A DNA stretch of 64,000 nt. Source: Panorpa germanica (Eukaryota > Arthropoda > Insecta > Mecoptera > Panorpidae). The DNA lies in contig OY783219.1 of assembly GCA_963678705.1 (NCBI GenBank), forward strand, positions 3,224,001 through 3,288,000, read 5' to 3'. Positions 11,946 through 64,000 of this stretch are shown piece by piece (positions within the stretch are counted from its first letter, which is position 1; every line of letters begins with the position of its first letter). A program made the position numbers and the translations under genes. The notes under the pieces are model-generated. The model saw nothing but the letters and a program-made list of their open reading frames with translations. It made no database searches and was not told the DNA's origin.

Positions 11946-12986
11946 ATTTGCCTTGACTTTTATTTGTCATAGCCACCATCAAACATTTTTTATACATATT
12001 TAACATTTTATAATTTTATTTTACAACTTTCTAAATATTTAAAAAATGATTTTTACTTTAATGTTTATCAATGCACTAGTTCTAATCCACAGTTCAAGCT
12101 TATTTTCTAACCATACTTCTCTTTTCTTTATTATATGATTTCTAACCAGGTTCGAATACCTGCTAGAACCATATAAATGGACGTATTAAATACATACATT
12201 CAGATAAAAAATTAATCTCATGGTAAAATATGTTAAACTTTAATCGAAAAATCACAAATCGCAAAAAATCACAAAAAAATGGTTGCAGTGTGAATATAAA
12301 TTACATATGTACAGATATTACAAAATACAAAATTCAAAAGGGCACACACTGTTGACAATTCGGCTCTGTGTAAACTGAAATCTTAAAGGTATCACACTTA
12401 AAACAATAATTTTAATTTTACTTGCCAAAATATCAAAATATTTTACTATATTCCAAAAGAAAATACACATATAAAATTAATAATACGACGCCATATGATC
12501 AAATAAAATCCATAGTTTAAAATTCAAATATAAAAACACGACTAAAGTCCGCCTAAATACATAAAGTTAAAAAAATAATCCACTGCAATTAATTTTTTGC
12601 TATTCTTTCATCGATGCGTTGTACTTGCTGCGTATCTCATTCTTATCTAATGCATGCAGTCGAGTTGATTAAACTATTAATGGAGGCCGAAGCCTAATGA
12701 GTTATTTCCACAAATATATTAATAAAAAATTAAAATGACTGGTATGTATTCTAGAAATTAGTTAAAAGTATTAAATCCATAATTGTCAACTTATTATTAC
12801 TGTAATTTTTATTAAAGATCATAATTTTTATCAAGTTAGTATTTCACTACTTGTAAACGTGTTTTAACCTGTTTTAACACCATGCGGATTTTTTCTATTG
12901 TTCAGATATGTGTGTTTAATTTTTGTTAACTTGTAATAATTTCACTTCCATATATTATAAATCATTCTTTTTATGTATTATTACAG

Positions 12987-13054
12987 TTTCTACTTTATAT
13001 ATCAACTCCTGGAGGATCGTACAGTTGCTAGTGCATATGACGATGTTCTAAATT
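12987..13054 (+). ncRNA. Predicted exon I-A1
   Basis: The exon is bounded by a TTATTACAG acceptor and an ATTGTAAGC donor. The same pair bounds 15549-15625 in copy B, which has a 9-base insertion. The frame is not conserved between copies, so it is taken as non-coding. The ~150 bases around the acceptor also occur near 17810-17965 and 20518-20668. Confidence 0.45.
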
Positions 13055-13126
13055 GTAAGCAATTTTATTACAATCATGAAATGTTTTTTTTAACAACATC
13101 TCATCTTAAAAATATTTCATTTACAG

Positions 13127-13258
13127 TAGACGCAGTGCTTACTATCTGGAAGTCCAGCGAAGGCAAACTCCATGTCCTGTTGCACTCTAGTTAGCCTGGA
13201 ATGTACACGGTGCTTCAGCTCCATACCAGACTTCTACTCAGCCTACAATTTGTAAATT
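13127..13258 (+). ncRNA. Predicted exon I-A2
   Basis: Acceptor TTTACAG at 13120-13126 and donor GTAAGTG at 13259. It contains ACTATCTGGAAGTCCAGCGA, in which CTGGA and TCCAG can pair. The exon is 132 bases here and 107 in copy B; the difference of 25 is not a multiple of three, so a conserved protein frame is unlikely. Confidence 0.45.
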
Positions 13259-13347
13259 GTAAGTGTATTGTTTTTCTATTTAGACATACGCACATACTGT
13301 TTGCCTTTATGTTTTTCATAAAAGAATGTTGTTTACATTTGTTACAG

Positions 13348-13423
13348 TTGGGGCTTGTTGTTGATCTGCAGGTAGGACTTCATACGGCTGGTACGGACAC
13401 GCTTGCGTTTTGATTTGGGCAAG
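13348..13423 (+). ncRNA. Predicted exon I-A3
   Basis: Acceptor TTGTTACAG. The best downstream donor is AAGGTGAGC at 13424. In copy B that donor is destroyed, and an earlier CAGGTAGGA (also present here at 13371) is the likeliest alternative. This exon is less certain than its neighbours. Confidence 0.35.
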
Positions 13424-14338
13424 GTGAGCGGGGGGAGTTTTTTCAGCAAAGTATATGTATGTATTTATTTTTAAATCATGCATTTAAAATTTCATTTAAA
13501 ATTTTCTAACTTGAATTATATTCATATTTATAAATGACCGCTACTCTAGCTGCTTTAGGAACATTTGTTGTTTCTGTTGATACCTTCTAAAAGGGGGGTA
13601 CTTAAATTGACTTACTCCACTTTATTTTTAATCTCAGAACTTTCCAATTTCTAAACTAATGATCATTTTAGTGTCGTACTTTGAACAGACAACATTTAAT
13701 TCTAAATTGAACATATTATTCTAAATTAAATAAATACAAAATAGAAACATTCTAAACCATATTCCTTTGAAGAAGGAGGAACCTAAAGTTACTCAAGTCG
13801 CCTTTATTATAAAAAGATCCGTAACTCTAAGTACACTGTTAAAAATGTTCTTAAATTTAATAGACAAATGCATATTAAAATTAAGAACCAGGTATATTAA
13901 TTATTTATAAGATGCATTATTTAGAATTTTTGTTTTTTACAATTAAATTTTACAAATCAATTCTTTTAAAATGCACTGGTATGTTATAAAAATTAATATA
14001 CGGTGTCTGAATTATTTTGCAATACACTGGTATTAAAATAAGCTTCAGAAATGTTATGAAAATATTTTTAAGAGTGTATTTTCATGTTTTCATTCGTAGA
14101 AATATTTTAATATTGAAATGAATAATAAATACTATTTAAAATATTGTAAAATTTATTCAAGTTTTCAATTTTTATAAATTCTTACAATCAAAATACTTTA
14201 AAATTTATTAGGTTTTTGATTTTTTTAATTATATATATAGGTTTTTAGTTTTTTTTGTATGTGTTATATTTTTCTTCTTATTTAATTTATATAACTGAGT
14301 CCTATCACTAACGACCTGCTGCGTGTGGTTTATTGCAG

Positions 14339-14488
14339 GTGTCGCGGTCCAAACTTTGATAGCCATCAATCACCGAGAATATACAGCTTGTCCAGGGATC
14401 CAACTCAAAGACATAGAAGTCTGGAACCAACCCTAAATGCTCTTGGCCGTCTGTACTGTCAAATACATTACATTTCAACATTTAAATT
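14339..14488 (+). ncRNA. Predicted exon I-A4
   Basis: Acceptor TTTATTGCAG and donor ATTGTAAGTGC give exactly 150 bases. Copy B has the same length and the same sites. Stops occur in all frames, so it is considered untranslated. The intron upstream is about 900 bases and very AT-rich. Confidence 0.5.
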
Positions 14489-15548
14489 GTAAGTGCTCTT
14501 TAGAATATTTCAAAATTTATTGCCTTGACTTTTATTCGTCATAGCCACCATCAAATATTTTTCTTACATATTTAACATTTTATAATTTTATTTTACAAAT
14601 TTCTAAATAATTAAATAATAATTTTTACTTTAATGTTTATCAATGCACTAGTTCTAATCCACAGTTCATGCTTATTTTCTAACCATACTTCTCTTTTCTT
14701 TATTATATGATTTTTAACCAGGTTCGAATATCAGCTAGAACCATATAAATGGACGTATTAAATACATACATTCAAATAAAAAATTAATCTCATGGTAAAA
14801 TATGCTAAAAATTTAATCAAAAAATCACAAATCGCAAAAAATCGGTTGCAGTGTGAGTAAAAATTACGTATGTACAGATAATACGAAATACAAAATACAA
14901 AGGGCACTCACTGTTGACAATACGGCTCTGTTTAAAATGAAATCTTAAAGGTATCACAAGTAAAACACTAATTTTAATTTTACTTGCCAAAATTTCAAAA
15001 TATTTAACTATATTATAAAAGAAAATACACATATAAAATTAATAGTACTACGCCATATGATCAAATAAAATCCATAGTTTAAAATTCAAAAATAAAAACA
15101 CGACTAAAGTCCGCCTAAATACATAGAGTTAAAAAAATAATCCACTGCAATTAATTTTTCGCCGTTGTTTCATCGATGCGTTGTACTGACTGCGCATCTC
15201 ATTCTTATCTAATGCATTCACTCGAGTTGATTAAACTATTAATGGTGGCCAAAGTCTAATGAGGTATTTCCACAAAAATATTAATAAAAAATTAAAGTGA
15301 GTGGTATGTATTCTAGAAATTAGTTAAAAGTATTAAATCCATAATTGTCTAGTTATTATTACTGTAATTTTACTTAGAAATCATAATTTTTATCGAGTTA
15401 GTATTTCACTACTTGAAAACGTGTTTTAACCTGTTTTAACACCATGTGATTTTTTTCTACTGTTCACATATTTGTGTTTCATTTTTGTTAACTTGTAATA
15501 ATTTCATTTACATATATTATAAATCATTCTTTTTATGTATTATTACAG

Positions 15549-15625
15549 TTTCTACTTTATTTATCAACTCCTGGAGGATAATACAGTGTTCAAAGTTGCT
15601 TGTGCATATGACGATGTTCTAAATT
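15549..15625 (+). ncRNA. Predicted exon I-B1
   Basis: Counterpart of 12987-13054, with the same ATTACAG acceptor and ATTGTAAGC donor. The 9-base insertion TGTTCAAAG lies near 15586-15594. Confidence 0.45.
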
Positions 15626-15695
15626 GTAAGCAATTTTATTATAACCATGAAATGCCTTTTTTAAGAACATCTCATATTAAATATTTCATTTACAG

Positions 15696-15802
15696 GGGGT
15701 GCAGTGTTTACTATCTGGAAGTCCAGCGACGGAAAACTTCATGTCCTGCTGCACTCTAGTTCTGCCGTACCAGACTTCTACTCAGCCTACAATTTGTAAA
15801 TT
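15696..15802 (+). ncRNA. Predicted exon I-B2
   Basis: Counterpart of 13127-13258, bounded by TTTACAG and GTAAGTG. The central part containing GGAATGTACACGGTGCTTC in copy A is missing here. No open frame spans it in a way shared with copy A. Confidence 0.45.
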
Positions 15803-15891
15803 GTAAGTGAATTGTTTTTCTAAATAAACATACGCACATATTCTTTGCCTTTATGTTTTTCATAACAGAATGTTGTTTACATTTGTTACAG

Positions 15892-15942
15892 TTGCCCCAA
15901 CTTGTTGTTTTTATGAATTCCTAGTGCTACGTCGATCTGCAG
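15892..15942 (+). ncRNA. Predicted exon I-B3
   Basis: Acceptor TTGTTACAG. The donor used in copy A is replaced by GGGCAGCGG, so the earlier CAGGTAGGA at 15941-15949 is the candidate donor. About 28 extra bases lie inside the exon relative to copy A. Confidence 0.3.
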
Positions 15943-16940
15943 GTAGGAGTTCATACGGCTGGTACGGACACGCTTCCGTTTTGATTTAGTGTTGGGCAGC
16001 GGGGGGCATTTTTTTAACCAAGTATATGTATGTATTTATTTTTAATTCATGCATTTAAAATTTTATTTAAAATTTTCTAACTTGAATTATATCTATATTT
16101 ATAAATGACCGCTACTCTAGCTGCTTTAGGAACATTTGTTGTTTCTGTTGATACCTTCTAAAAGGGGGGTACTTAAATTGACTTACTCCACTTTATTTTT
16201 AATCTCAGAACTTTCCAATTTCTAAACTAATGATCATTTTAGTGTCGTACTTTGAACAGACAACATTTAATTCTAAATTGAACATATTATTCTAAATTAA
16301 ATAAATACAAAATAGAAACATTCTAAACCATATTCCTTTGAAGAAGGAGGAACCTAAAGCTACTCAAGTCGCCTTTATTATAAAAAGATCCGTAACTCTA
16401 AGTACACTGTTAAAAATGTTCTTAAATTTAATAGACAAATGCATATTAAAATTAAGAACCAGGTATATTAATTATTTATAAGATGCATTATTTAGAATTT
16501 TTGTTTTTTAAAATTAAATTTTACAAATCAATTCTTTTAAGATGCACTGGTATGTTATAAAAATTAATATACGGTGTCTGAATTATTTTGCAATACACTG
16601 ATATTAAAATAAGCTTCAGAAATGTTATGAAAATATTTTTAAGAGTGTATTTTCATGTTTTCATTGTTGGAAATATTTTAAAATTGAAATGAATAATAAA
16701 TACTATTTAAAATATTGTAAAATTTATTCAAGTTTTCAATTTTTATAAATTCTTACAATATTTCCAAATTGAATTTGCAACTACTATTCAAAATACTTTA
16801 AAATTTATTAGGTTTTTTGATTTTTCTAATTATATATATAGGTTTTTAGTTTTTATATGTATGTGTTATATTTTTCTACTTATTTAATTTATATAACTGA
16901 GTCCTATCACTAACAACCTGCTGCGTGTGGTTTATTGCAG

Positions 16941-17090
16941 GTGTCGCCGTCCAAACTTTGATGGCAATTAATCACAGACAATATACAGCTTGTCCAGGGA
17001 TCCAACTCAAAGACATAGAAGTCTGGCACCAACCCTAAATGCTCTTGGCCGTCTGTACTGTCAAATACATTACATTTCAACATTTAAATT
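16941..17090 (+). ncRNA. Predicted exon I-B4
   Basis: Counterpart of 14339-14488, again 150 bases, with TTTATTGCAG and ATTGTAAGTGC preserved. Exact preservation of both sites and of length across a diverged duplication is the best single argument that these are real exons. Confidence 0.5.
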
Positions 17091-17210
17091 GTAAGTGCTC
17101 TTTAGAATATTTTAAAATTGATTTGGTTCTTTCAATTTATGTACTTATGTATACCATATAAGTTGAAATTATAAATTCATTTTTAATTGTTTTAAATGTT
17201 TTGATTCCAG

Positions 17211-17711
17211 CACACATAGAAATATTATGGACTTAATCGCATTGACTTCTGAACCGCTCAAAATTATGGTAACACTTTTCTACTAATTCTATGGACTGCC
17301 GAAAAAATGTATCTCTGGTAACACAGTGAGTATCGATAGTATCGATATATCGGGTAGAACAACAAAATTAATTAAACATCAGGCAACGCAATAAAATTAA
17401 TTTAACAGCAGCAACACTAATTTTTCAGCTATAAAAGTAAAATGGCGGCAATAAAAATAAAATGACGAATGGGTTATGTAATTTTTTTTGTAAACCTTTA
17501 TAAAAAAATTACAGGTGAATTAAGTGCATTGTTTAAACAAATTATTAAGTGACAAATAACAATATGTGATTTAAGTTATGTGAAAGTGGATTAGTGTCTG
17601 TGTGTTTGGGCATGTCGATGCCTTATGTATTGGACAGTGTGTGTCCGGCATTAACTTCTGGCTGTACTTCAACGATGCTTTGACCTTGACGTGAAGGATT
17701 GTGTTTATATT
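17211..17711 (+). ncRNA. Predicted exon linking duplications I and II
   Basis: A good acceptor (TTTTGATTCCAG) ends at 17210. Donors follow at 17326 (CAGTGAGT) and 17712 (TTGTAAGTAC). The sequence up to ~17595 has no second copy in the window. It includes ATCGATAGTATCGATATATCG, a self-complementary stretch near 17333. From 17596 onward it enters duplication II. Which donor is used cannot be told from sequence, and no frame runs through it. Confidence 0.3.
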
Positions 17712-18014
17712 GTAAGTACTTTCTATTGTTTTATTTTTTAACACATTTTGCTATTAATGCTTTTCTTTTAAAATAATTATTTTTAATTAATTTATCATTT
17801 CAAACGTTAAAACGTGTTCTAACCTGTTTTAGGACCATACAGTTTTTTCTGTGGTTTAGATATGTGTGTTACATTTTTGTTAACTTGTAATAATTTCACT
17901 TCTATATATTACAAATCATTCTTTTTATGAATTTATTACAGTTTCTACTTTACATATCATTTTGGATGTGGATTTTTTTTTATTATGAAACTAATTCATT
18001 TTTTTTTCTTCTAG

Positions 18015-18175
18015 TAAAATTATATCCTCATCTGCTTTCAATGCTAAACATAAGTAGTAATTGTTAGTAGTTGTAAGTATGGGACAATGTGTGTCCAGCA
18101 TTAACTTCTGGTCGTGCACCTGTGATGGATTGACCTTGACGCGGAGGACCATAGGACTTTGATTCTGTTTATATT
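18015..18175 (+). ncRNA. Predicted exon II-1b
   Basis: Acceptor TTCTTCTAG and donor ATTGTAAGTAC. An alternative acceptor (TTTATTACAG) ends at 17941, which would lengthen the exon. A GTAAGTATG word at 18073 could split it, but copy 2 lacks that word. It contains the second copy of the GTGTGTCCAGCATTAACTTC motif. Confidence 0.4.
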
Positions 18176-18442
18176 GTAAGTACTTTGTTTTGTTTATTTA
18201 TTAAGACCTTTTGCTAAGAATATTTTTCTTTTAAAATAATATTTTTATTTCATTTATCGTTTTGAATATGAATTTATTTCTTGTAGTAAAATTATATGCT
18301 CATTTATTTCCATCGCATACTTTTTAAATTATCTTTTTTCAATAATTGAATTAATTTTATAACTTTTTAGATTTTAATTTCTTTCTCAATATTTTGAAAT
18401 TATAGTTTACAATAAATTTAAAATATTTTTGAATTCTTACAG

Positions 18443-18528
18443 GATATCGACAAGACTGCTACAAGTAAGACTTCTTTGGCGCTGTGATGGCATCTATTTG
18501 CTGTATAATTAATAGCTGAGTTCAGACC
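18443..18528 (+). ncRNA. Predicted exon II-2
   Basis: Acceptor ATTCTTACAG and donor ACCGTGAGTTT give 86 bases; copy 2 (21144-21229) has the same length. An internal GTAAGA at 18465 could act as an early donor leaving a 22-base exon. The exon is nearly identical between copies and contains stops. Confidence 0.45.
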
Positions 18529-18746
18529 GTGAGTTTTTTTACATTTATTTGGTGGTGGTATTGTAACAAGTGTCGGCTAATTCATTAAAAACTATTTCCA
18601 ATTAATTTAGAAAAACATTTAATATGTTTTAGAAATTTCTAACTTTATTTTAAATTAGAAAAAATAATTTTTAATGAATTAGTTAAATATTTTTGAGATG
18701 TATGTTTTTTTCCCTACAGCTTTCGTTCGTTCGTTCGTTTCGCGAT

Positions 18747-18770
18747 GTAGCTTCGTGCGCGATAAGCTAC
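18747..18770 (+). other. Stem-loop 1, copy 1
   Basis: GTAGCTT pairs perfectly with AAGCTAC around a 10-base loop CGTGCGCGAT. Confidence 0.6.
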
Positions 18771-18855
18771 TAATTTCGTTATAAATTAATAATAATTAAA
18801 CAATATACAGATTCTACATAAAATTTATAAATAAATCGGTTCGGTTCGGTTCGGG

Positions 18856-18887
18856 TCGTTCTAGTTGAGCTTCGTGCGGGATAAGCT
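18856..18887 (+). other. Stem-loop 2, copy 1
   Basis: CTAG-TT-GAGCTT pairs with AAGCTC-CTAG around the loop CGTGCGGGAT. The two unpaired T bases form a bulge. It is preceded by a GGTTC run. Confidence 0.6.
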
Positions 18888-18968
18888 CCTAGAAATTTAA
18901 AATTTAATTATTAATTAATAACAATCAAATTTTTTTAAATAAATCGGTTCGGTTCGGTTCGGTTCGTT

Positions 18969-19000
18969 CTAGTTGAGCTTAGTGCGGGATAAGCTCCTAG
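18969..19000 (+). other. Stem-loop 3, copy 1
   Basis: The stem is the same as stem-loop 2; the loop is AGTGCGGGAT (first base changed). It is preceded by four GGTTC units. Confidence 0.6.
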
Positions 19001-19212
19001 ATATTTTAAACTAAAGTGAAAAGACAATAAACATTAAATGTGACATTGTTTTAAACAATTTTTTTAAAATAAGTGCAACGGGGAAGCAGAGGCTGGGGGC
19101 CTTCGTGCGCTGGACTTCCAGAAGGAAGGTAATTCAAGAGTTCAATGTCGATTTTATATTAATATTTAATATTGATAATTATTTTCTAACCAATGCTTTT
19201 CCGTTGTTACAG

Positions 19213-19281
19213 ATGGACTACAGGACCTTCGTACCCCACTGCCTGCATGATTTATAACCGGTCTTTGGTTTTAGTTAAAAA
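19213..19281 (+). ncRNA. Predicted exon II-4 with a 14-codon open frame
   Basis: Acceptor GTTGTTACAG and donor AAAAAGTAAGT, 69 bases, with the same sites and length in copy 2. The exon opens with ATG as its first codon and reads 14 codons (MDYRTFVPHCLHDL) to TAA. The same frame is identical in copy 2. It could be a short upstream frame that tunes translation of the later MSS frame, or chance in a recent duplicate. Confidence 0.45.
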
Positions 19282-19376
19282 GTAAGTAAACAAAATCATT
19301 TATATGAACATATTAATAATATATATTTGGTAAACATTTTTATAAAATAATTATTTTTGTTGCAGTTTTTTTTCAG

Positions 19377-19462
19377 CTTGTAGTTTGTAGCAGTTTGTAG
19401 GAGTTTGTAGCAGTTCATCTTTAGCGGCAGGAGCCATTTTGCATTAGGATGTTATAAAATAG
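19377..19462 (+). ncRNA. Predicted exon II-5
   Basis: Acceptor TTTTTTTCAG (an earlier TTGCAG ends at 19365) and donor ATAGGTAATT. It begins with tandem GTTTGTAGCA/GTTTGTAGGA words; copy 2 has fewer of them. No open frame. Confidence 0.4.
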
Positions 19463-19570
19463 GTAATTATCAAACTATTTATACTATACATATATTCTAA
19501 TTTGTTTTAAATATTTATCTAATACATTTTCTTTAATTACAGCTCACTTCATGGTTCAAAAGCAGTGACA

Positions 19571-20393
19571 ATGAGCTCTGGTGAGTGCTTTTTAATTATT
19601 ACAGTAGTTTCCAAACTTGACTTAACTACAAATAAAAGTAGTAACGCCCTCCTCCCCCCCACTCTGTCTATTTTATTCCCTTTTTTTCGGGGTTTTAGTT
19701 AAATATAGGTGTTAGGTAGGGAATTAGGTTTTCGGGTTTTTAGTTAAATATAGGTGTTAGGTAGGAAATTAGGTATATTAATATCGATATTCCCGTGCAC
19801 CTTAAGTGCCTTGTCCCACAGTTTGGAAACTACTGCTTTTTTGGTGTTGGGATGAAAATATTTGTGCATGCTTGACACTTGTTGCAATTTTTATTATGAA
19901 TTGTTGTGTTTTAGTGTTCAGTGATTAAAAGTGAAAAGTGATAAGTGAGAGTGCCGCGAATATGTTACTTATAATAGATACATAATTTATTAATTTAAAT
20001 TATGAAAATTATTTGTGCATATTCGCTTGTGAAAAAAGTGATGATTATATGTATATTTTTAATTTTTTTATTAAATTTTTTTTTTTTAATTTTTAAAATT
20101 TTTTTTTTTTAAATTATTGTTTTATTTCATTTTTTTCTTTAACGTTATTATTATTTCTTATTAATTTTTCTTTTGTTTCATTTTTTGAAAAAAAATTTTC
20201 TTTTTTTTTTTAAATTTTTTTTTTAAATTTTTTCTTTCTTCTTTCTTCTTGATCTACAGGAAACCAATTTTATCTAGTCACAATTGGACTATATTTGGAG
20301 GGAGCGTCTGTGGGTTTGTCTATCTCGATGCCTTGCGTATTTGACAGTGTGTGTCCCGCATTATCTTCTGGCTGTACACCGGTGATGGATTGA
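19571..20393 (+). CDS. Small spliced reading frame, copy 1, fused terminal exon
   Basis: The frame starts at ATG 19571 in exon 19543-19580 (acceptor TTAATTACAG, donor GGTGAGTGC). It is joined in phase to an exon starting at 20260 (acceptor GATCTACAG). The product begins MSSG-NQFYLVTIGLYLEGA. At about 20306 the duplication junction replaces the native exon end with the first exon of copy 2, so the frame reads another 28 unrelated residues to TGA at 20391-20393, 47 residues in all. The fused exon could run on to the donor at 20422. The native part differs from copy 2 mainly at silent sites (AAC/AAT, CTA/CTG), consistent with past protein constraint. Function unknown; the tail is probably an accident of duplication. 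Confidence 0.35.
20055..20250 (+). repeat. T-rich low-complexity tract, copy 1
   Basis: Long T runs broken by A and occasional C sit directly before the GATCTACAG acceptor of the terminal exon. It would serve as an unusually long polypyrimidine region. The counterpart in copy 2 is 22795-23035. Confidence 0.7.
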
Positions 20394-20421
20394 CCTTGAC
20401 GTGAAGGATTGTTTTTATATT
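20260..20421 (+). ncRNA. Fusion exon across the duplication II junction
   Basis: The acceptor belongs to the copy 1 terminal exon; the donor (TTGTAAGTACC at 20422) belongs to the copy 2 first exon. If both are used, this 162-base exon splices copy 1 to copy 2, giving one serial transcript. It contains the stop of the copy 1 small frame. Confidence 0.35.
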
Positions 20422-20726
20422 GTAAGTACCTTTCTATTGTTCTATTTATTAACACATTTTGCTATTAATGCTTTTCTTTTAAATTAATTATTTTTAATTA
20501 ATTTATCATTTCAAACGTTAAAACGTGTTCTAACCTGTTTTAGGACCGTGCAGTTTTTTCTGTGGTTTAGATATGTGTGTTACATTTTTGTTAACTTGTA
20601 ATAATTTTACTTCTATATATTATAGATGATTCTTTTTTATGAATTATTACAGTTTCTACTTTACATATCATTTTGGATGTGGATTTTTTTTTTATTATGA
20701 AACTAATTCATTTTCTTTTCTTCTAG

Positions 20727-20877
20727 TAAAATTATATCCTCATCTGCTTTCAATGCTAAACATAAGTAGTAATTGTGATCATGGGACAGTGTGTGTCCAG
20801 CATTAACTTCTGGCCGTGCACCTGTGATGGATTGACTTTGACGCGGAGGACCATAGGACTTTGATTCTGTTTATATT
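20727..20877 (+). ncRNA. Predicted exon II-1b, copy 2
   Basis: Counterpart of 18015-18175, with TTCTTCTAG and ATTGTAAGTAC preserved. It is ten bases shorter around the GTAGTTGTAAGT word of copy 1. Confidence 0.4.
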
Positions 20878-21143
20878 GTAAGTACTTTGTTTTGCTTATT
20901 ATTAACATATTTTGCTAAGAATATTTTTCTTTTAAAATAAAATTTTTATTTCATTTTTCGTTTTGAATATGAATTTATTTCTTGTAGTAAAATTATATGC
21001 TCATTTATTTCCATCGCATACTTTTTAAATTATCTTTTTTCAATAATTGAATTAATTTTATAACTTTTTAGATTTTAATTTTTTTCTCAATATTTTGAAA
21101 TTATAGTTTACAATAAATTTTAAATATTTTTGAATTCTTACAG

Positions 21144-21229
21144 GATATCGACAAGACTGCTGCAAGTAAGACTTCTTTGGCGCTGTGATGGCATCTATTT
21201 GCTGTATAATTAATAGCTGAGTTCAGACC
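21144..21229 (+). ncRNA. Predicted exon II-2, copy 2
   Basis: It has 86 bases like its counterpart, with ATTCTTACAG and ACCGTGAGT preserved. Confidence 0.45.
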
Positions 21230-21449
21230 GTGAGTTTTTTACATTTATTTGGTGGTGGTATTGTAACAAGTGTCGGCTAATTCATTAAAAATTAATTCCA
21301 ATTAATTTTAATAAAACATTTAATATGTTTTAGAAATTTTTAACTTTTTTGAATTGGAAAAAATAATTTTTAATGGATTAGTTAAATATTTTTGAAATGT
21401 ATGTTTGTTTTTTTCCCTACAGCTTTCGTTCGTTCGTTCGTTTCGCGAT

Positions 21450-21473
21450 GTAGCTTCGTGCGCGATAAGCTAC
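21450..21473 (+). other. Stem-loop 1, copy 2
   Basis: Identical to stem-loop 1 of copy 1: GTAGCTT / AAGCTAC around CGTGCGCGAT. Confidence 0.6.
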
Positions 21474-21563
21474 TAATTTCGTTATAAATGAATAATAATT
21501 AAACAATATACAGATTCTACTTAAAATTTATAAATAAATCGGTTCGGTTCGGTTCGGTTCGTT

Positions 21564-21595
21564 CTAGTTGAGCTTCGTGCGGGATAAGCTCCTAG
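21564..21595 (+). other. Stem-loop 2, copy 2
   Basis: Arms CTAG-TT-GAGCTT and AAGCTC-CTAG; loop CGTGCGGGAT. Preceded by a GGTTC run. Confidence 0.6.
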
Positions 21596-21670
21596 AAATT
21601 TGAAATTTAATTATTAATTAATAACAATCAATTTTTTTAAATAAATCGGTTCGGTTCGGTTCGGTTCGTT

Positions 21671-21702
21671 CTAGTTGAGCTTCGTGCGGGATAAGCTCCT
21701 AG
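21671..21702 (+). other. Stem-loop 3, copy 2 (extra unit)
   Basis: Same stem and loop as stem-loop 2. The surrounding ~105 bases repeat the previous unit almost exactly. Confidence 0.6.
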
Positions 21703-21772
21703 AAATTTGAAATTTAATTATTAATTAATAACAATCAATTTTTTTAAATAAATCGGTTCGGTTCGGTTCGTG

Positions 21773-21804
21773 CTAGTTGAGCTTAGTGCGGGATAAGCTC
21801 CTAG
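21773..21804 (+). other. Stem-loop 4, copy 2
   Basis: It has the AGTGCGGGAT loop variant, so it corresponds to stem-loop 3 of copy 1. Confidence 0.6.
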
Positions 21805-22017
21805 ATATTTTAAACTAAAGTGAAAAGACAATAAACATTAAATGTGACAGTACTTTAAACAATTTTTTTTAAAATAAGTGCAACGGGGAAGCAGAGGCTG
21901 GGAGCCTTCGTGCGCTGGACTTTTAGACGGAAGGTATTATCAGATTTCAACGTCGATATCTTATTAATATTTAAAATTGATAATTATTTTCTAACCAATG
22001 CTTTTCCGTTGTTACAG

Positions 22018-22086
22018 ATGGACTACAGGACCTTCGTACCCCACTGCCTGCATGATTTATAACCGGTCTTTGGTTTTAGTTAAAAA
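22018..22086 (+). ncRNA. Predicted exon II-4, copy 2, with the same 14-codon frame
   Basis: It has 69 bases with both splice sites preserved. The 14-codon frame starting at the first exon base is unchanged from copy 1. Confidence 0.45.
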
Positions 22087-22176
22087 GTAAGTAAACCATT
22101 TATATGAACATATTAATAATATATATTTGGTAAATATTTTTATAAAATAATTATTTTTGTTGCAGTTTTTTTTCAG

Positions 22177-22252
22177 CTTGCAGTTTGTAGCAGTTTGTAG
22201 GAGTTCATCTTTAGCGGCAGGAGCCGTCTTGCATTAGGATATTATAAAATAG
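22177..22252 (+). ncRNA. Predicted exon II-5, copy 2
   Basis: Acceptor TTTTTTTCAG and donor ATAGGTAATT. It is ten bases shorter than its counterpart because one GTTTGTAGCA word is missing. Confidence 0.4.
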
Positions 22253-22360
22253 GTAATTATCAAACTATTTATACTATACATATATTCTAATTTGTTTTAA
22301 ATATTTATCTAATCAATTTTCTTTAATTTCAGCTCACTTCATGGTCCAAAAGCAGTGACA

Positions 22361-23229
22361 ATGAGCTCCGGTAAGTGCTTTTTAATTATTACAGTAGTTT
22401 CCAAACTTGACTTAACTACAAATATAAGTAGTAACGCCCTCCTCCCCACTCTGTCTGTTTTATTCCTTTTTTTTCGGGTTTTTAGTTAAATATAGGTGTT
22501 AGGTAGGGAATTAGGTTTACTGATATCGATATTCCCGTGCACCTTAAGTGCCATACCCCACAGTTTGGAAACTACTGTTCTTTTGGTGTTGGGATGAAAA
22601 TATTTGTGCATGCTTGACACTTGTTGCAATTTTTATTATGAATTGTTGTGTTTTAGTGTTCAGTGATTAAAAGTGAAAAGTGATAAGTGAGAGTGCCGCG
22701 AATATGTTACTTATAATAGATACATAATTTATTAATTTAAATTATGAAAATTATTTGTGCATATTCGCTTGTGAAAAAAGTGATGATGAAATATATATTT
22801 TTAATTTTTTTTATTAAATTTTTTTTTTCAAATTTTTTTAAAATTTTTTTTTAAATTATTGTTTTATTTCATTTTTTTCTTTAACGTTATTATTATTTTT
22901 TATTTATTTTTCTTTTGTTTCATTTTTTTTCTTTAACGTTATTATCAATAAAATTAATAAAATATAATTTTCTTTTGTTTCATTTTTTTTCTATAATGTT
23001 ATTTTTTATTTTCTTATTTTTACTTTCTTCTTGATCTACGAGAAATCAATTTTATCTGGTCGCAATTGGACTATATTTGGAGGGAGCCAAAGACTCTTTA
23101 TGGCTTAATACGGACATGAATACCAAAGTCGCTTGGCACCAGAAGCCAATCATTTCTTCGGTGCCCAGACCAGTAATGCACGAAGTAAACAAAGGATACT
23201 ACAAAGAGAAGATTGAAAAACGCGACTAA
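22361..23229 (+). pseudogene. Small spliced reading frame, copy 2, acceptor shifted by one base
   Basis: ATG 22361 lies in exon 22333-22370 (donor CCGGTAAGT), encoding MSS plus one base. The terminal exon frame matching copy 1 runs from 23044 to TAA at 23227-23229, 61 codons, giving 65 residues if joined as in copy 1. It is basic and polar toward its end (KEKIEKRD). However, the acceptor reads CTACGAG where copy 1 has CTACAGG, so the AG moves one base downstream. Canonical splicing then gives MSSE plus 24 unrelated residues, ending at TGA 23117-23119. It may be a true lesion, an assembly or sequence error, or evidence that the 61-codon frame is used from another start (internal ATG at 23116). 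No family recognised. Confidence 0.35.
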
Positions 23230-52837: not shown

Positions 52838-53571
52838 CTATGGTTTCTTCGTATTTATAAATACAATGTGCTCCGAAATTATCGATATAATGTCTGTGTG
52901 TCCATCTTTAAGTGAACGTAAAAATCGTGGCACTAATAGAGTGATGGGAGAGGAGAGGGGGATGGTTTCTTTGCACAAATAGAGTGATTGGGAGAGGAGA
53001 GGGGGATGGTTTCTTCATATTTATAAATAAAATGTGCACCGAAATGATCAATATAATGTCTGTGTGTCCATCTTCAAGTGGACGTAAAAATCGTGGTACA
53101 AATAGAGTGTTGGGAGAGGAGAGGGGGATGGTTTCTTCGTATTTATAAATAAAATGTGCACCGAAATGATCGATATAATGTCTGTGTGTCCATCTTCAAG
53201 TGGACGTAAAAATCGTGGTACAAATAGAGTGTTGGGAGAGGAGAGGGGGATGGTTTCTTCGTATTTATAAATAAAATGTGCACCGAAATGATCGATATAA
53301 TGTCTGTGTGTCCATCTTTAAGTGGACGTAAAAATCGTGGTACAAATAGAGTGTTGGGAGAGGAGAGGGGGATGGTTTCTTCGTATTTATAAATAAAATG
53401 TGCACCGAAAGGATCGATATAATGTCTGTGTGTCCATCTTCAAGTGGACGTAAAAATCGTGGTACAAATAGAGTGTTGGGAGAGGAGAGGGGGATGGTTT
53501 CTTCGTATTTATAAATAAAATGTGCACCGAAATGATCGATATAATGTCTGTGTGTCCATCTTTAAGTGTAC
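52838..53571 (+). repeat. 122-bp minisatellite, about six copies
   Basis: GGTTTCTTC starts at 52842, 53008, 53130, 53252, 53374 and 53496, a 122-base period. Between 52963 and 53007 is an extra partial unit repeating AGAGTG..GGGAGAGGAGAGGGGG. Each unit holds a G-rich segment and TGTGCACCGAAATGATCGAT. The array directly follows the truncated end of the 331-bp satellite. Outer units are the most diverged. Confidence 0.92.
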
Positions 53572-54566
53572 GTAAATATCTCGTTTTTGAAAGTGACTCG
53601 CTGAATGAAAAATCCGCTGATATGCTTTTACAAAAGAATGTATTTATTACACGAGTTGGAAATAAGATAGAATGCTACACAAAACATCATTTTATAGCTA
53701 ATAAATACGTACATAAAAATTGATTATTTTACCTTAAATTAAAGGTTTTGTTAACGTCAGAAAATGTGAATTTATCTTGCAAGAAAATTTAGGGTTGAAG
53801 ATTGAAAAATTAAAAAATGATACATACTCGTATTCGCCCACATAACCAAGAGTTATAAACAATTAAAATAAAGATATTAATGCACACCCTTTACTTATTC
53901 TTCTAACTTAAACATAAGACCTGTCGATTTGAATTAAGTTTACGCTTAAACAATTTTTGATATGAACTTAATTTATATTAAAAGTATAATGAAAAATAAG
54001 GGGATGAGCACAGAGGAGCTCTCCTAAAAAATAAACCGAATGTTAAAGTCGTTCCGTGGGGTAAGAGGGAGGACGGGTGGTGTCGTAGAGGGTAGCATGA
54101 TGGTAGAGAAGGTGGATGTAGGTTGAACCAGCAGTGGCAGAGACTCTGTTAAGAGTTCAAGAAGAAGAGAACAATAAGAAAAAAACAAAAACAAATGGCC
54201 GTTGTAGGAACTGTTGGACATCTTCTATTAATATCAAATTACAGCAATAAAATATCGTATTTGTGGAAGTACCAGTAGTGCTACAGTATACATACACACT
54301 CGAAAGTACAAGTAGATAACTATCTATAGTTCCATTTATGACGGATCAGGTGTGACACACTTACAAAAGTTAATCTGTGTAAAAAACTACGATGCAATAA
54401 GTATCTATAATATTTTATAGTTCAATTACGAGAGATCTGCATCGACTCATGTTTTAGGTGAACTCTCTTTTTTATTCGCTTGTTAAAAAAAGTGTGTTTC
54501 TACGATGTTGAAGACATGCCGTAGTCTTTGTTAGTTTCCTTAATCCAGCTCCGGATTAAATCTATC
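53572..54566. other. Spacer between minisatellite and detached satellite fragment
   Basis: A 67-codon frame starts in the last minisatellite unit (53520) and ends at 53723; its later part has mixed composition but no recognised motif. A minus-strand 65-codon frame near 54024-54221 is low in complexity. No gene is supported. Confidence 0.5.
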
Positions 54567-62960: not shown

Positions 62961-63342
62961 TAGAGGTGGATGTAGCATTACAATGTACAGAGTCGGAGCT
63001 TATTATTTTTGTTGTTAGAGTAAACTAATTTCACATTATCTTCAATTGACAGTGATTATGTTTAAAGCTAATAATTCAGAACGTGTTTTAACATGTATTT
63101 GTTTATAAGCAAAATCCAACAAGCAGAAAGGTTCTCTGCTGTTAACTATGTAAAAATCTACTTCTTCGACCGTTTAAGATAAGTTTTATGCGGTTGTCCT
63201 ATGCCTTTATAGATAATAAATACCTCAACGCATATTTAGCAACACTGGCAACATCGCTTTTACTAAACAATATCATTTGCTATCAAATATTTGTCAATTT
63301 TATAACGTTACATATCATAACGCTTAACTACATAAGGCCTGT

Positions 63343-64000
63343 CTCAGTATGGGACCGTATTTAAGCGAATTTCTGCCGGACGTATACGGGCTACTACGCT
63401 TTACCTATCCGAACCCTGTAAATGTAATGAGATCGCTCTGGAGCTCTCAGACTGCACGCTACAAAGCAGTCCGAATACGGGCGGCACTACCTCGCACATT
63501 AGAAGCGTATAAAGGCGAATATTATCCAAGCGTTACCACAACTACAACGATACCCTATATGAACCTTTGTAAATGCAAAAAGCCGCATCAGACTGGAGGG
63601 GATACCTAAGATCGCTTGTTGTTACGCTGCAATACGCGGTCAAATGAAATCTATCGGCGACATGGGTATGTTCTGCATGCAATTTATGTTTGTATTTCAG
63701 TGAATCATGGGCACGGATGCCCATACCAATAGGATAGAACTAAATTTAAATTCACGCCCACCAGAACTCAGATATATAATAAATGCTAAAGTCCCTTTAA
63801 TACCAGTAGTGTATCGATAAAAATTAAAGTTAAAGTTTGCTCTCATGATAAATTATATAAGTGTTAAAGAACTCCAATACACCCTCTAATACACGACTAC
63901 AGACATCTGTGACACACATAGGGCGGTTTGCTTTGTAGCTCATTCAAACCGCCGATTTACGTCCGAATACGCCGTCGCTTAAATACGGTCCCATACTGAG
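63343..64000. mobile_element. Short DNA transposon-like element with perfect 25-bp terminal inverted repeats
   Basis: The first 25 bases (63343-63367, starting CTCAGTATGGGACC) are the exact reverse complement of the last 25 (63976-64000). The inner flanks keep partial complementarity around CGGACGTA. The element is 658 bases, too short for a transposase. An 86-codon frame from 63349 begins inside the inverted repeat and shows no transposase motif. Motifs of the CCGAATAC/CGTATTCGG type recur inside near both ends. The right flank is outside the window, so the target-site duplication and hence the superfamily cannot be read. A non-autonomous MITE is the best description. Confidence 0.8.

Follow-up and report, generated by a model that had tools for sequence, protein, structure and literature searches.

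What is a short hairpin, almost constant in its loop, doing several times over in a single exon? The question is raised by 64,000 nucleotides of contig OY783219.1 of the insect Panorpa germanica (assembly GCA_963678705.1, positions 3,224,001 to 3,288,000), the whole of which is called the window here and corresponds to C16:3224001-3288000 in the assembly searched (464 Mb, 249 contigs). The window contains a tandem duplication of about 2.7 kb. Comparison of the window with itself and with related copies elsewhere suggests that each half is one copy of a multi-exon unit with exons A to H, copy 1 (U3) at 17593-20302 and copy 2 (U4) at 20303-23086, both on the + strand. Exon D of this unit carries the hairpin three times in copy 1 (18720-19128) and four times in copy 2 (21423-21933). 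The answer to which we would give an even chance is that the hairpin is a docking module in a multicopy, spliced and apparently non-coding RNA family, present in one to five units per exon in most copies. As far as DNA sequence can tell, the hairpin, its repetition, its conservation among copies and the selection that keeps the splice sites are all there.

A repeated hairpin in a dispersed family

A scan of the window with GCTTCGTGCGCGATAAGC, allowing up to 3 mismatches, returned exactly seven sites, all on the + strand, at 18750, 18869 and 18977 in copy 1 and at 21453, 21572, 21679 and 21781 in copy 2; 100 dinucleotide shuffles returned none. A covariance model recovers the same seven at 49-61 bits, the next best hit scoring 14.3 bits. 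Copy 1 begins with a type 1 hairpin (18747-18770), GTAGCTT-CGTGCGCGAT-AAGCTAC, whose inner stem is intact. Two type 2 hairpins with an outer CTAG/CTAG stem follow, one with a G.G mismatch in the inner stem (18861-18892) and one with the loop AGTGCGGGAT and the inner stem lost (18969-19000). Copy 2 has the type 1 hairpin (21450-21473) and three of type 2 (21564-21595, 21671-21702 and 21773-21804), the last with the loop AGTGCGGGAT and the middle one being an extra hairpin that arose when one 107-bp tandem unit was duplicated. The seven stem-loops of the original prediction were thus all recovered, together with its loop forms, its two stem types and the GGTTC and CGTT runs that it placed ahead of the hairpins; the duplicated exon that it proposed proves to run from the first base of exon D in copy 1 (18720) to the last base of exon D in copy 2 (21933). 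Because copy 2 duplicates copy 1, the seven hairpins are not independent. The window itself has a single compensated pair, T-A versus G-C, which adjoins the fixed AGCTT/AAGCT arms; the outer pairs also differ between the types.

The exon is a local duplicate, as had been proposed, but the tandem copies belong to a dispersed family that had gone unnoticed. The core pattern CTTMGTGCGSGATAAG occurs 66 times genome-wide, versus 0 times for its reversed control, and at 20 of 20 fetched loci long exon and intron stretches match the window, the longer matches being 64-92% identical with variable coverage. A DNA search with the 2.7-kb unit gave at least 98 matches on 14 contigs, and the pattern and DNA searches combined spread the family over 16 contigs. 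At least 46 copies have both the end of exon D and exon G, and since 40 of 208 candidates were scored in the DNA search, this family size is a lower bound. The locus set comprises 44 loci, of which 31 (window included) were found by the exact-loop pattern and 13 by DNA similarity; the counts omit L003-L010, L016, L024, L025, L028 and L030, which duplicate longer stretches. All 31 loci used that match CTTMGTGCGSGATAAG hold other parts of the unit. Two hairpin loci (L039 and L044) have no recognised end of exon D in the fetched stretch and match the family elsewhere.

Four further copies form a tandem array on C16, at a spacing of 3.2-3.7 kb, and other copies lie in inverted pairs that point outward, with arms of up to 3.6 kb that are 98.7% identical. 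Such head-to-head gene palindromes are found at L012 (252-3844 and 5246-8851, 98.7% over up to 3.6 kb), L013 and L011, an arrangement suggestive of recent duplication or gene conversion. The inverted hairpin pairs, with about 5 kb between them, had pointed to an element with terminal inverted repeats, a candidate that lost ground once the arms turned out to be whole-unit inverted duplications. Viral relatives were also discarded: a relaxed pattern matched two viral contigs, both in the same phage region with a single motif copy, and this count is close to our own estimate of the chance expectation for 18 fixed bases.

The number of hairpins is variable, as the two window copies had already indicated, and ranges from 0 to 5 per exon segment. 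Hairpins are present in 36 of the 38 segments for which both ends were found, with 1 hairpin in 3 segments, 2 in 19, 3 in 9, 4 in 4 and 5 in 1; in 8 further copies exon C was absent from the fetched stretch. The position of the first hairpin is nearly fixed, its stem starting 15-32 nucleotides past the splice acceptor in 34 of the 35 segments measured. The exception, L045, has a degenerate hairpin near the expected place. Given this near-fixed distance, the hairpin may also have a role in the splicing of exon D itself.

Conservation, fold, and predicted splicing

The hairpin has outlasted the sequence around it. Among 30 non-redundant copies (five of 35 having been dropped as near-identical), stem and loop are 94-96% identical in pairwise comparison, versus 66-83% for the flanks. 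On a tree of 33 copies, the hairpin changed 1.0-1.3 times per position, versus 2.3 for the introns of the same copies; the 17 nucleotides flanking the hairpin gave 5.5-6.2 changes per position, a value that is overstated because the flanks were compared without gaps, which makes the introns the fair yardstick. Among the 57 hairpins that were not needed for locus discovery, 55 have no gaps, and the loops of these show no variation at positions 1, 2, 4, 6, 9 and 10. Position 3, which alternates between T and C, accounts for 8 of the 10 loop changes, and a YGCG tetraloop is found in 54 of the 55. This bias-corrected count dropped the last matching hairpin of each copy; in the C16/C20 group that hairpin has the loop AGTGCGGGAT, and this variant (7 of 87 ungapped units) is hence absent from the 57.

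What had been described as a near-constant 10-base loop is indeed conserved, but is better read as a 3-bp stem with a YGCG tetraloop above a UA bulge. For the common form, RNAfold predicts 5'-GUAGCU-UCG-YGCG-YGA-UA-AGCUAC-3', in which a 6-bp stem is topped by an inner stem of 3 bp and the tetraloop, with a UA bulge between the two stems on the 3' side; RNAalifold chooses the inner stem and the bulge unprompted from 15 diverse copies. The inner stem offers a reason for the near-invariance of the loop positions outside the tetraloop. Compensatory changes, which had been proposed from the two stem types of the window, exist but are few; it is in several other loci that pairing is kept. They include changes from T-A to A-T (L049), from G-C to T-A (L042) and from C-G to T-A (L048), as well as G-U changes with pairing kept at L018, L036, L038 and L040. 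Three one-base deletions (one in L041, two in L048) can be read as losses from the bulge that leave the stems intact, and the unrelated outer stems CTAG/CTAG, UAACG/CGUUA and GCGC/GCGC each pair. In a set of 29 distinct cores (26 unique 24-mers, that of L048 being placed in register, and three gapped units), 88.8% of cells are paired; this pairing and the covariation score were reached by 0 of 500 shuffles, and the count of cells with a change in both partners by 1 of 500.

The case for splicing comes from an alignment that runs from the end of exon D to intron G in 44 copies, obtained by removing two near-identical ones from the 46 (pairwise identity median 83%, minimum 65%). Donor D is GT in 43 of 44 copies; acceptor E is AG in 41 of 41 and donor E is GT in 42 of 42 copies with letters at the site; and acceptor F, donor F, acceptor G and donor G are each kept in 44 of 44. 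On the tree of the introns, the splice dinucleotides changed once over 14 sites, versus 1073 changes over 357 intron sites (3.0 per site), so that the family copies appear to be selected to be spliced, in line with the spliced unit of the original prediction. Terminal branches account for 3.39 of 5.19 substitutions per site (65% of tree length), and single copies, beyond their ancestors, therefore seem to be held by selection. Exons F and G are constrained, with 1.49 and 1.11 changes per site, respectively, and exon E (3.67) and the end of exon D (3.20) are not; the overall identity of exons (0.76-0.92) is similar to that of introns (0.78-0.84). Generic donor scoring on the + strand at the lowest threshold found 17 sites, versus 5 on the - strand, a mean of 6.9 and a maximum of 15 in shuffles, and 16 in a control stretch; at higher thresholds the counts fall inside the shuffle range, and acceptor scoring gave 11, versus 8.8 in shuffles. 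It is conservation across copies, rather than generic splice scoring, that is decisive for the predicted splicing.

The rest of the unit and its surroundings

All further parts of the unit lie on the + strand. Exon C of copy 1 (18443-18528) has like sequence and splice sites at most of 20 loci compared, and exon D follows an acceptor with the sequence CCCTACAG. Exon E (19213-19281) changes as fast as the introns, exon F (19366-19462) is constrained, and exon G (19543-19580), the slowest of the four exons measured, ends in ATGAGCTCTG followed by GTGAGT. In exon F, 32 of the 44 copies have an exact match to GGAGCCATCTTG, which contains GCCATCTTG, presumably a YY1/Pho-type motif, the two window copies not being among them; the block of exons F and G may hold a regulatory element. 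Intron G starts with an inverted repeat, CAGTAGTTTCCAAAC...GTTTGGAAACTACTG (19602-19837), which is found at the same place elsewhere, with small changes across the six loci viewed, and which we take to resemble an old hAT-type miniature inverted-repeat transposable element.

An upstream part of the unit (12522-17500) is itself duplicated (about 12.5-15.1 and 15.1-17.5 kb, the longest blocks being 94% identical) and has homologous stretches at a number of other family loci. One of its putative exons (14339-14430 and 16941-17030) resembles an antisense tRNA-like short interspersed element (SINE) that recurs at other loci and contains GGGATCGAACCCGAAGAC, which we compare to a B box. Another upstream stretch of putative exon (13146-13170) is, by eye, approximately the reverse complement of the end of exon D (19100-19125, GCCTTCG..CTGGACTTCCAG), and the two could pair.

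No convincing reading frame was found, and the unit is apparently non-coding. In exons D-G, to which the coding test was applied, the longest frame starting with ATG has a median of 31 amino acids over 44 copies, 8 of which are without the 5' part of exon D. A frame through exons E and F (19213-19462 and other copies; ...SLFIIKKFLSACSCSSSSLVAGAILH...) recurs in unrelated copies and has no consistent start: an upstream ATG is present in 4 of 44 copies, several copies have early stops, and the core of the frame in exon F has 30, 15 and 21 changes at codon positions 1, 2 and 3. Since the ATG is so rare and no third-position excess is seen, this frame is not taken as coding. A frame at 14299-14433 in the upstream part was rejected, as it is partly the antisense SINE-like piece, and so was a frame at 23035-23229, for which PDB gave weak matches (E 0.056 and 0.094) and the other loci no clear relative. 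Searches of ten frames against Pfam gave no match up to E 1, and the window contains no open reading frame of 150 amino acids or more. A reading frame at 63328-63606 (ACLSMGPYLSEFLPDVYGLLRFTYPN...) is also present in L019 and points to an uncharacterised dispersed repeat.

A tRNA scan of the window found none. Just downstream of the hairpin-exon unit lies a satellite array (27907-52828) in which a 331-bp unit that holds TTTAGGTTAAGG repeats recurs about 75 times (97% matches), and this is followed at 52975-53580 by five tandem copies of a GGGAGAGGAGAGGG-rich 122-bp unit. Genome-wide, 97 matches to the odorant-binding family PBP_GOBP were seen, versus none in 14 control genomes, which fits an insect, this family being typical of insects. 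Most of the matches are near full length in a single uninterrupted frame, although introns are common in insect odorant-binding protein genes.

Readings of the unit and comparison with known systems

If the hairpin is a docking module, the unit would be transcribed and spliced into a non-coding RNA in which the hairpin is predicted to fold. A putative protein reader would recognise the tetraloop, the bulge and the stem, and several hairpins per transcript, separated by AU-rich linkers, would form a multivalent docking platform on which one to five hairpins could provide graded avidity. Several results weigh against this reading. The folding energy of the whole exon is ordinary in both copies (z -0.71 in copy 1, with 21 of 100 shuffles as good; z +0.32 in copy 2, with 60 of 100), and five window hairpins folded singly are not exceptional (z +0.31 to -2.00). 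In the C16/C20 lineage, window included, type 2 hairpins have a damaged inner stem, and in the window's own type 2 hairpins it is wholly or partly lost. Two of the five covariation measures are unremarkable, being reached by 53 and 102 of 500 shuffles, and the unpaired cells of the 29 cores number 12 and 6 in the outer two pairs, 5 and 4 in the innermost two and 1 in each of two others. The conservation of the loop is favoured by sampling, since 31 of the 44 loci came through the exact-loop pattern. Across the paralogs, stems do not on the whole mutate without pairing being kept, yet broken stems occur, and nine loci, all among the 13 found by similarity, have no hairpin: L050 (C18), L051-L054 (C19) and L055-L058 (C16:2300-2312 kb). 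These nine still keep exons E-G, so that not every copy needs the hairpin; the fetched stretches of seven of them yielded no exon C. Finally, the constraint on the sequence exceeds what pairing alone would impose.

This last point keeps a DNA-level site among the candidates. The motif, whose core is an imperfect palindrome and in which AGCTT...AAGCT is an inverted repeat, would then be bound by a factor as DNA and would not act as RNA structure, an explanation that we find improbable: it sits poorly with the several G-U changes, with unrelated outer stems that still pair and with the near-fixed distance of the first motif from the splice acceptor. The same distance would suit a 5' leader with a start codon at its end, in which exon G (ATGAGC..G) is spliced to various coding exons and the hairpin controls splicing or translation, and exon G is indeed the slowest-changing exon measured, with its donor kept in 44 of 44 copies. 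However, the other loci that were searched revealed no coding exon downstream that they have in common, the four tandem copies on C16 are just 3.2-3.7 kb apart, and exon G itself has a one-base length difference, a variable last codon and a second ATG that is altered in some copies, all of which makes a leader doubtful, if a little less so than a DNA site.

A further alternative sees in the unit a selfish or transposable DNA element, about 5 kb long, which is incidentally spliced, the hairpin either aiding its spread or being a remnant. The spread over 16 contigs with flanks mostly unmatched between loci, the inverted pairs, the SINE-like pieces inside and the lack of a convincing reading frame would all be natural for such an element. 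Yet no transposon-like shared termini were seen in the copies examined, whose edges differ, a comparison in which not every copy was seen to its ends and which included no systematic search for target-site duplications, and copies on long terminal branches keep their splice sites, which is unexpected for neutral element copies. We regard this explanation as unlikely, though as deserving somewhat more credit than a 5' leader. By contrast, hardly any credit is left for a neutral duplication relic, alike through recent copying. The window copies are close duplicates, as it would have them, but across the 30 non-redundant copies the hairpin is far more alike than its flanks, and the tree counts, both for splice dinucleotides and for hairpin versus introns, also speak against it.

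As regards described families, the original prediction knew of none with this loop, and a scan of the window with Rfam 15 agrees: no match reaches the gathering score, and a relaxed scan (up to E 5) gave a single sub-threshold match (E 4) to a viral pseudoknot model, outside the hairpin exons. In the literature, the loop strings turned up only in connection with vertebrate Pax6 loci, and searches on repeats in insect long non-coding RNAs (lncRNAs), on lncRNA families with many copies and on lncRNAs with tetraloops gave nothing that we recognised as this hairpin-exon family. YGCG, and the UUCG found in L041, fit the YNMG tetraloop pattern; the usual closing pair of YNMG/UNCG tetraloop hairpins is C-G, whereas here it is G-C or G-U. 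The roX RNAs, which are bound by MLE/MSL proteins and coat the male X, have a roX box with the sequence GTTNTACG, which matches the window 5 times versus 7.0 expected, with no match in 12.5-23.1 kb, where the window copies of the unit lie. Membership in roX was rejected on this ground.

On the best reading, the family would nevertheless work like the arrays of roX or of the Xist A-repeat while being a member of neither. The roX1 and roX2 lncRNAs of Drosophila have repeated short stem-loops within one stretch (domain D3 of roX1, exon 3 of roX2), and this motif outlasts the remaining sequence, with a unit number that varies between species and matters for function (PMC4719309). To that extent, the Panorpa unit, considered from its DNA alone, would be alike: an apparently non-coding RNA with repeated short stem-loops, a motif that outlasts the rest and a variable number of units. 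It differs in its hairpin and in having at least 46 copies on 16 contigs, as opposed to one or two genes. The Xist A-repeat of placental mammals consists of 7.5-8.5 units of a 26-mer with an AUCG tetraloop, joined by U-rich linkers, and is a proposed protein-binding platform (PMC5742192). Short tetraloop hairpin units are common to both, and the linkers are U-rich in Xist and AU-rich here. The difference lies in AUCG and a 26-mer within one gene, as against YGCG and a 24-nucleotide core in one to five units within many genes, and membership in the Xist A-repeat was rejected on the near-universal YGCG tetraloop.

A wider version of the docking-module reading is that dozens of dispersed non-coding genes are individually selected for splicing and that most of them show one hairpin code, read by one putative protein on transcripts from most chromosomes. 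We put it forward tentatively, as possible rather than probable. If true, it could mean, for example, that many loci are marked by one ribonucleoprotein, or that an RNA-level selfish or counter-selfish system is at work. A few single genes, such as roX and Xist, are known to give lncRNAs in which an array of hairpins shares one docking motif. The natural variants of this family, with 0 to 5 units and with inner stems that range from intact to broken, would allow the contributions of loop, bulge, stem and copy number to be separated, and a new RNA-binding protein could come to light through them. The family would then stand as a clear insect example of a large set of related non-coding genes maintained by selection.

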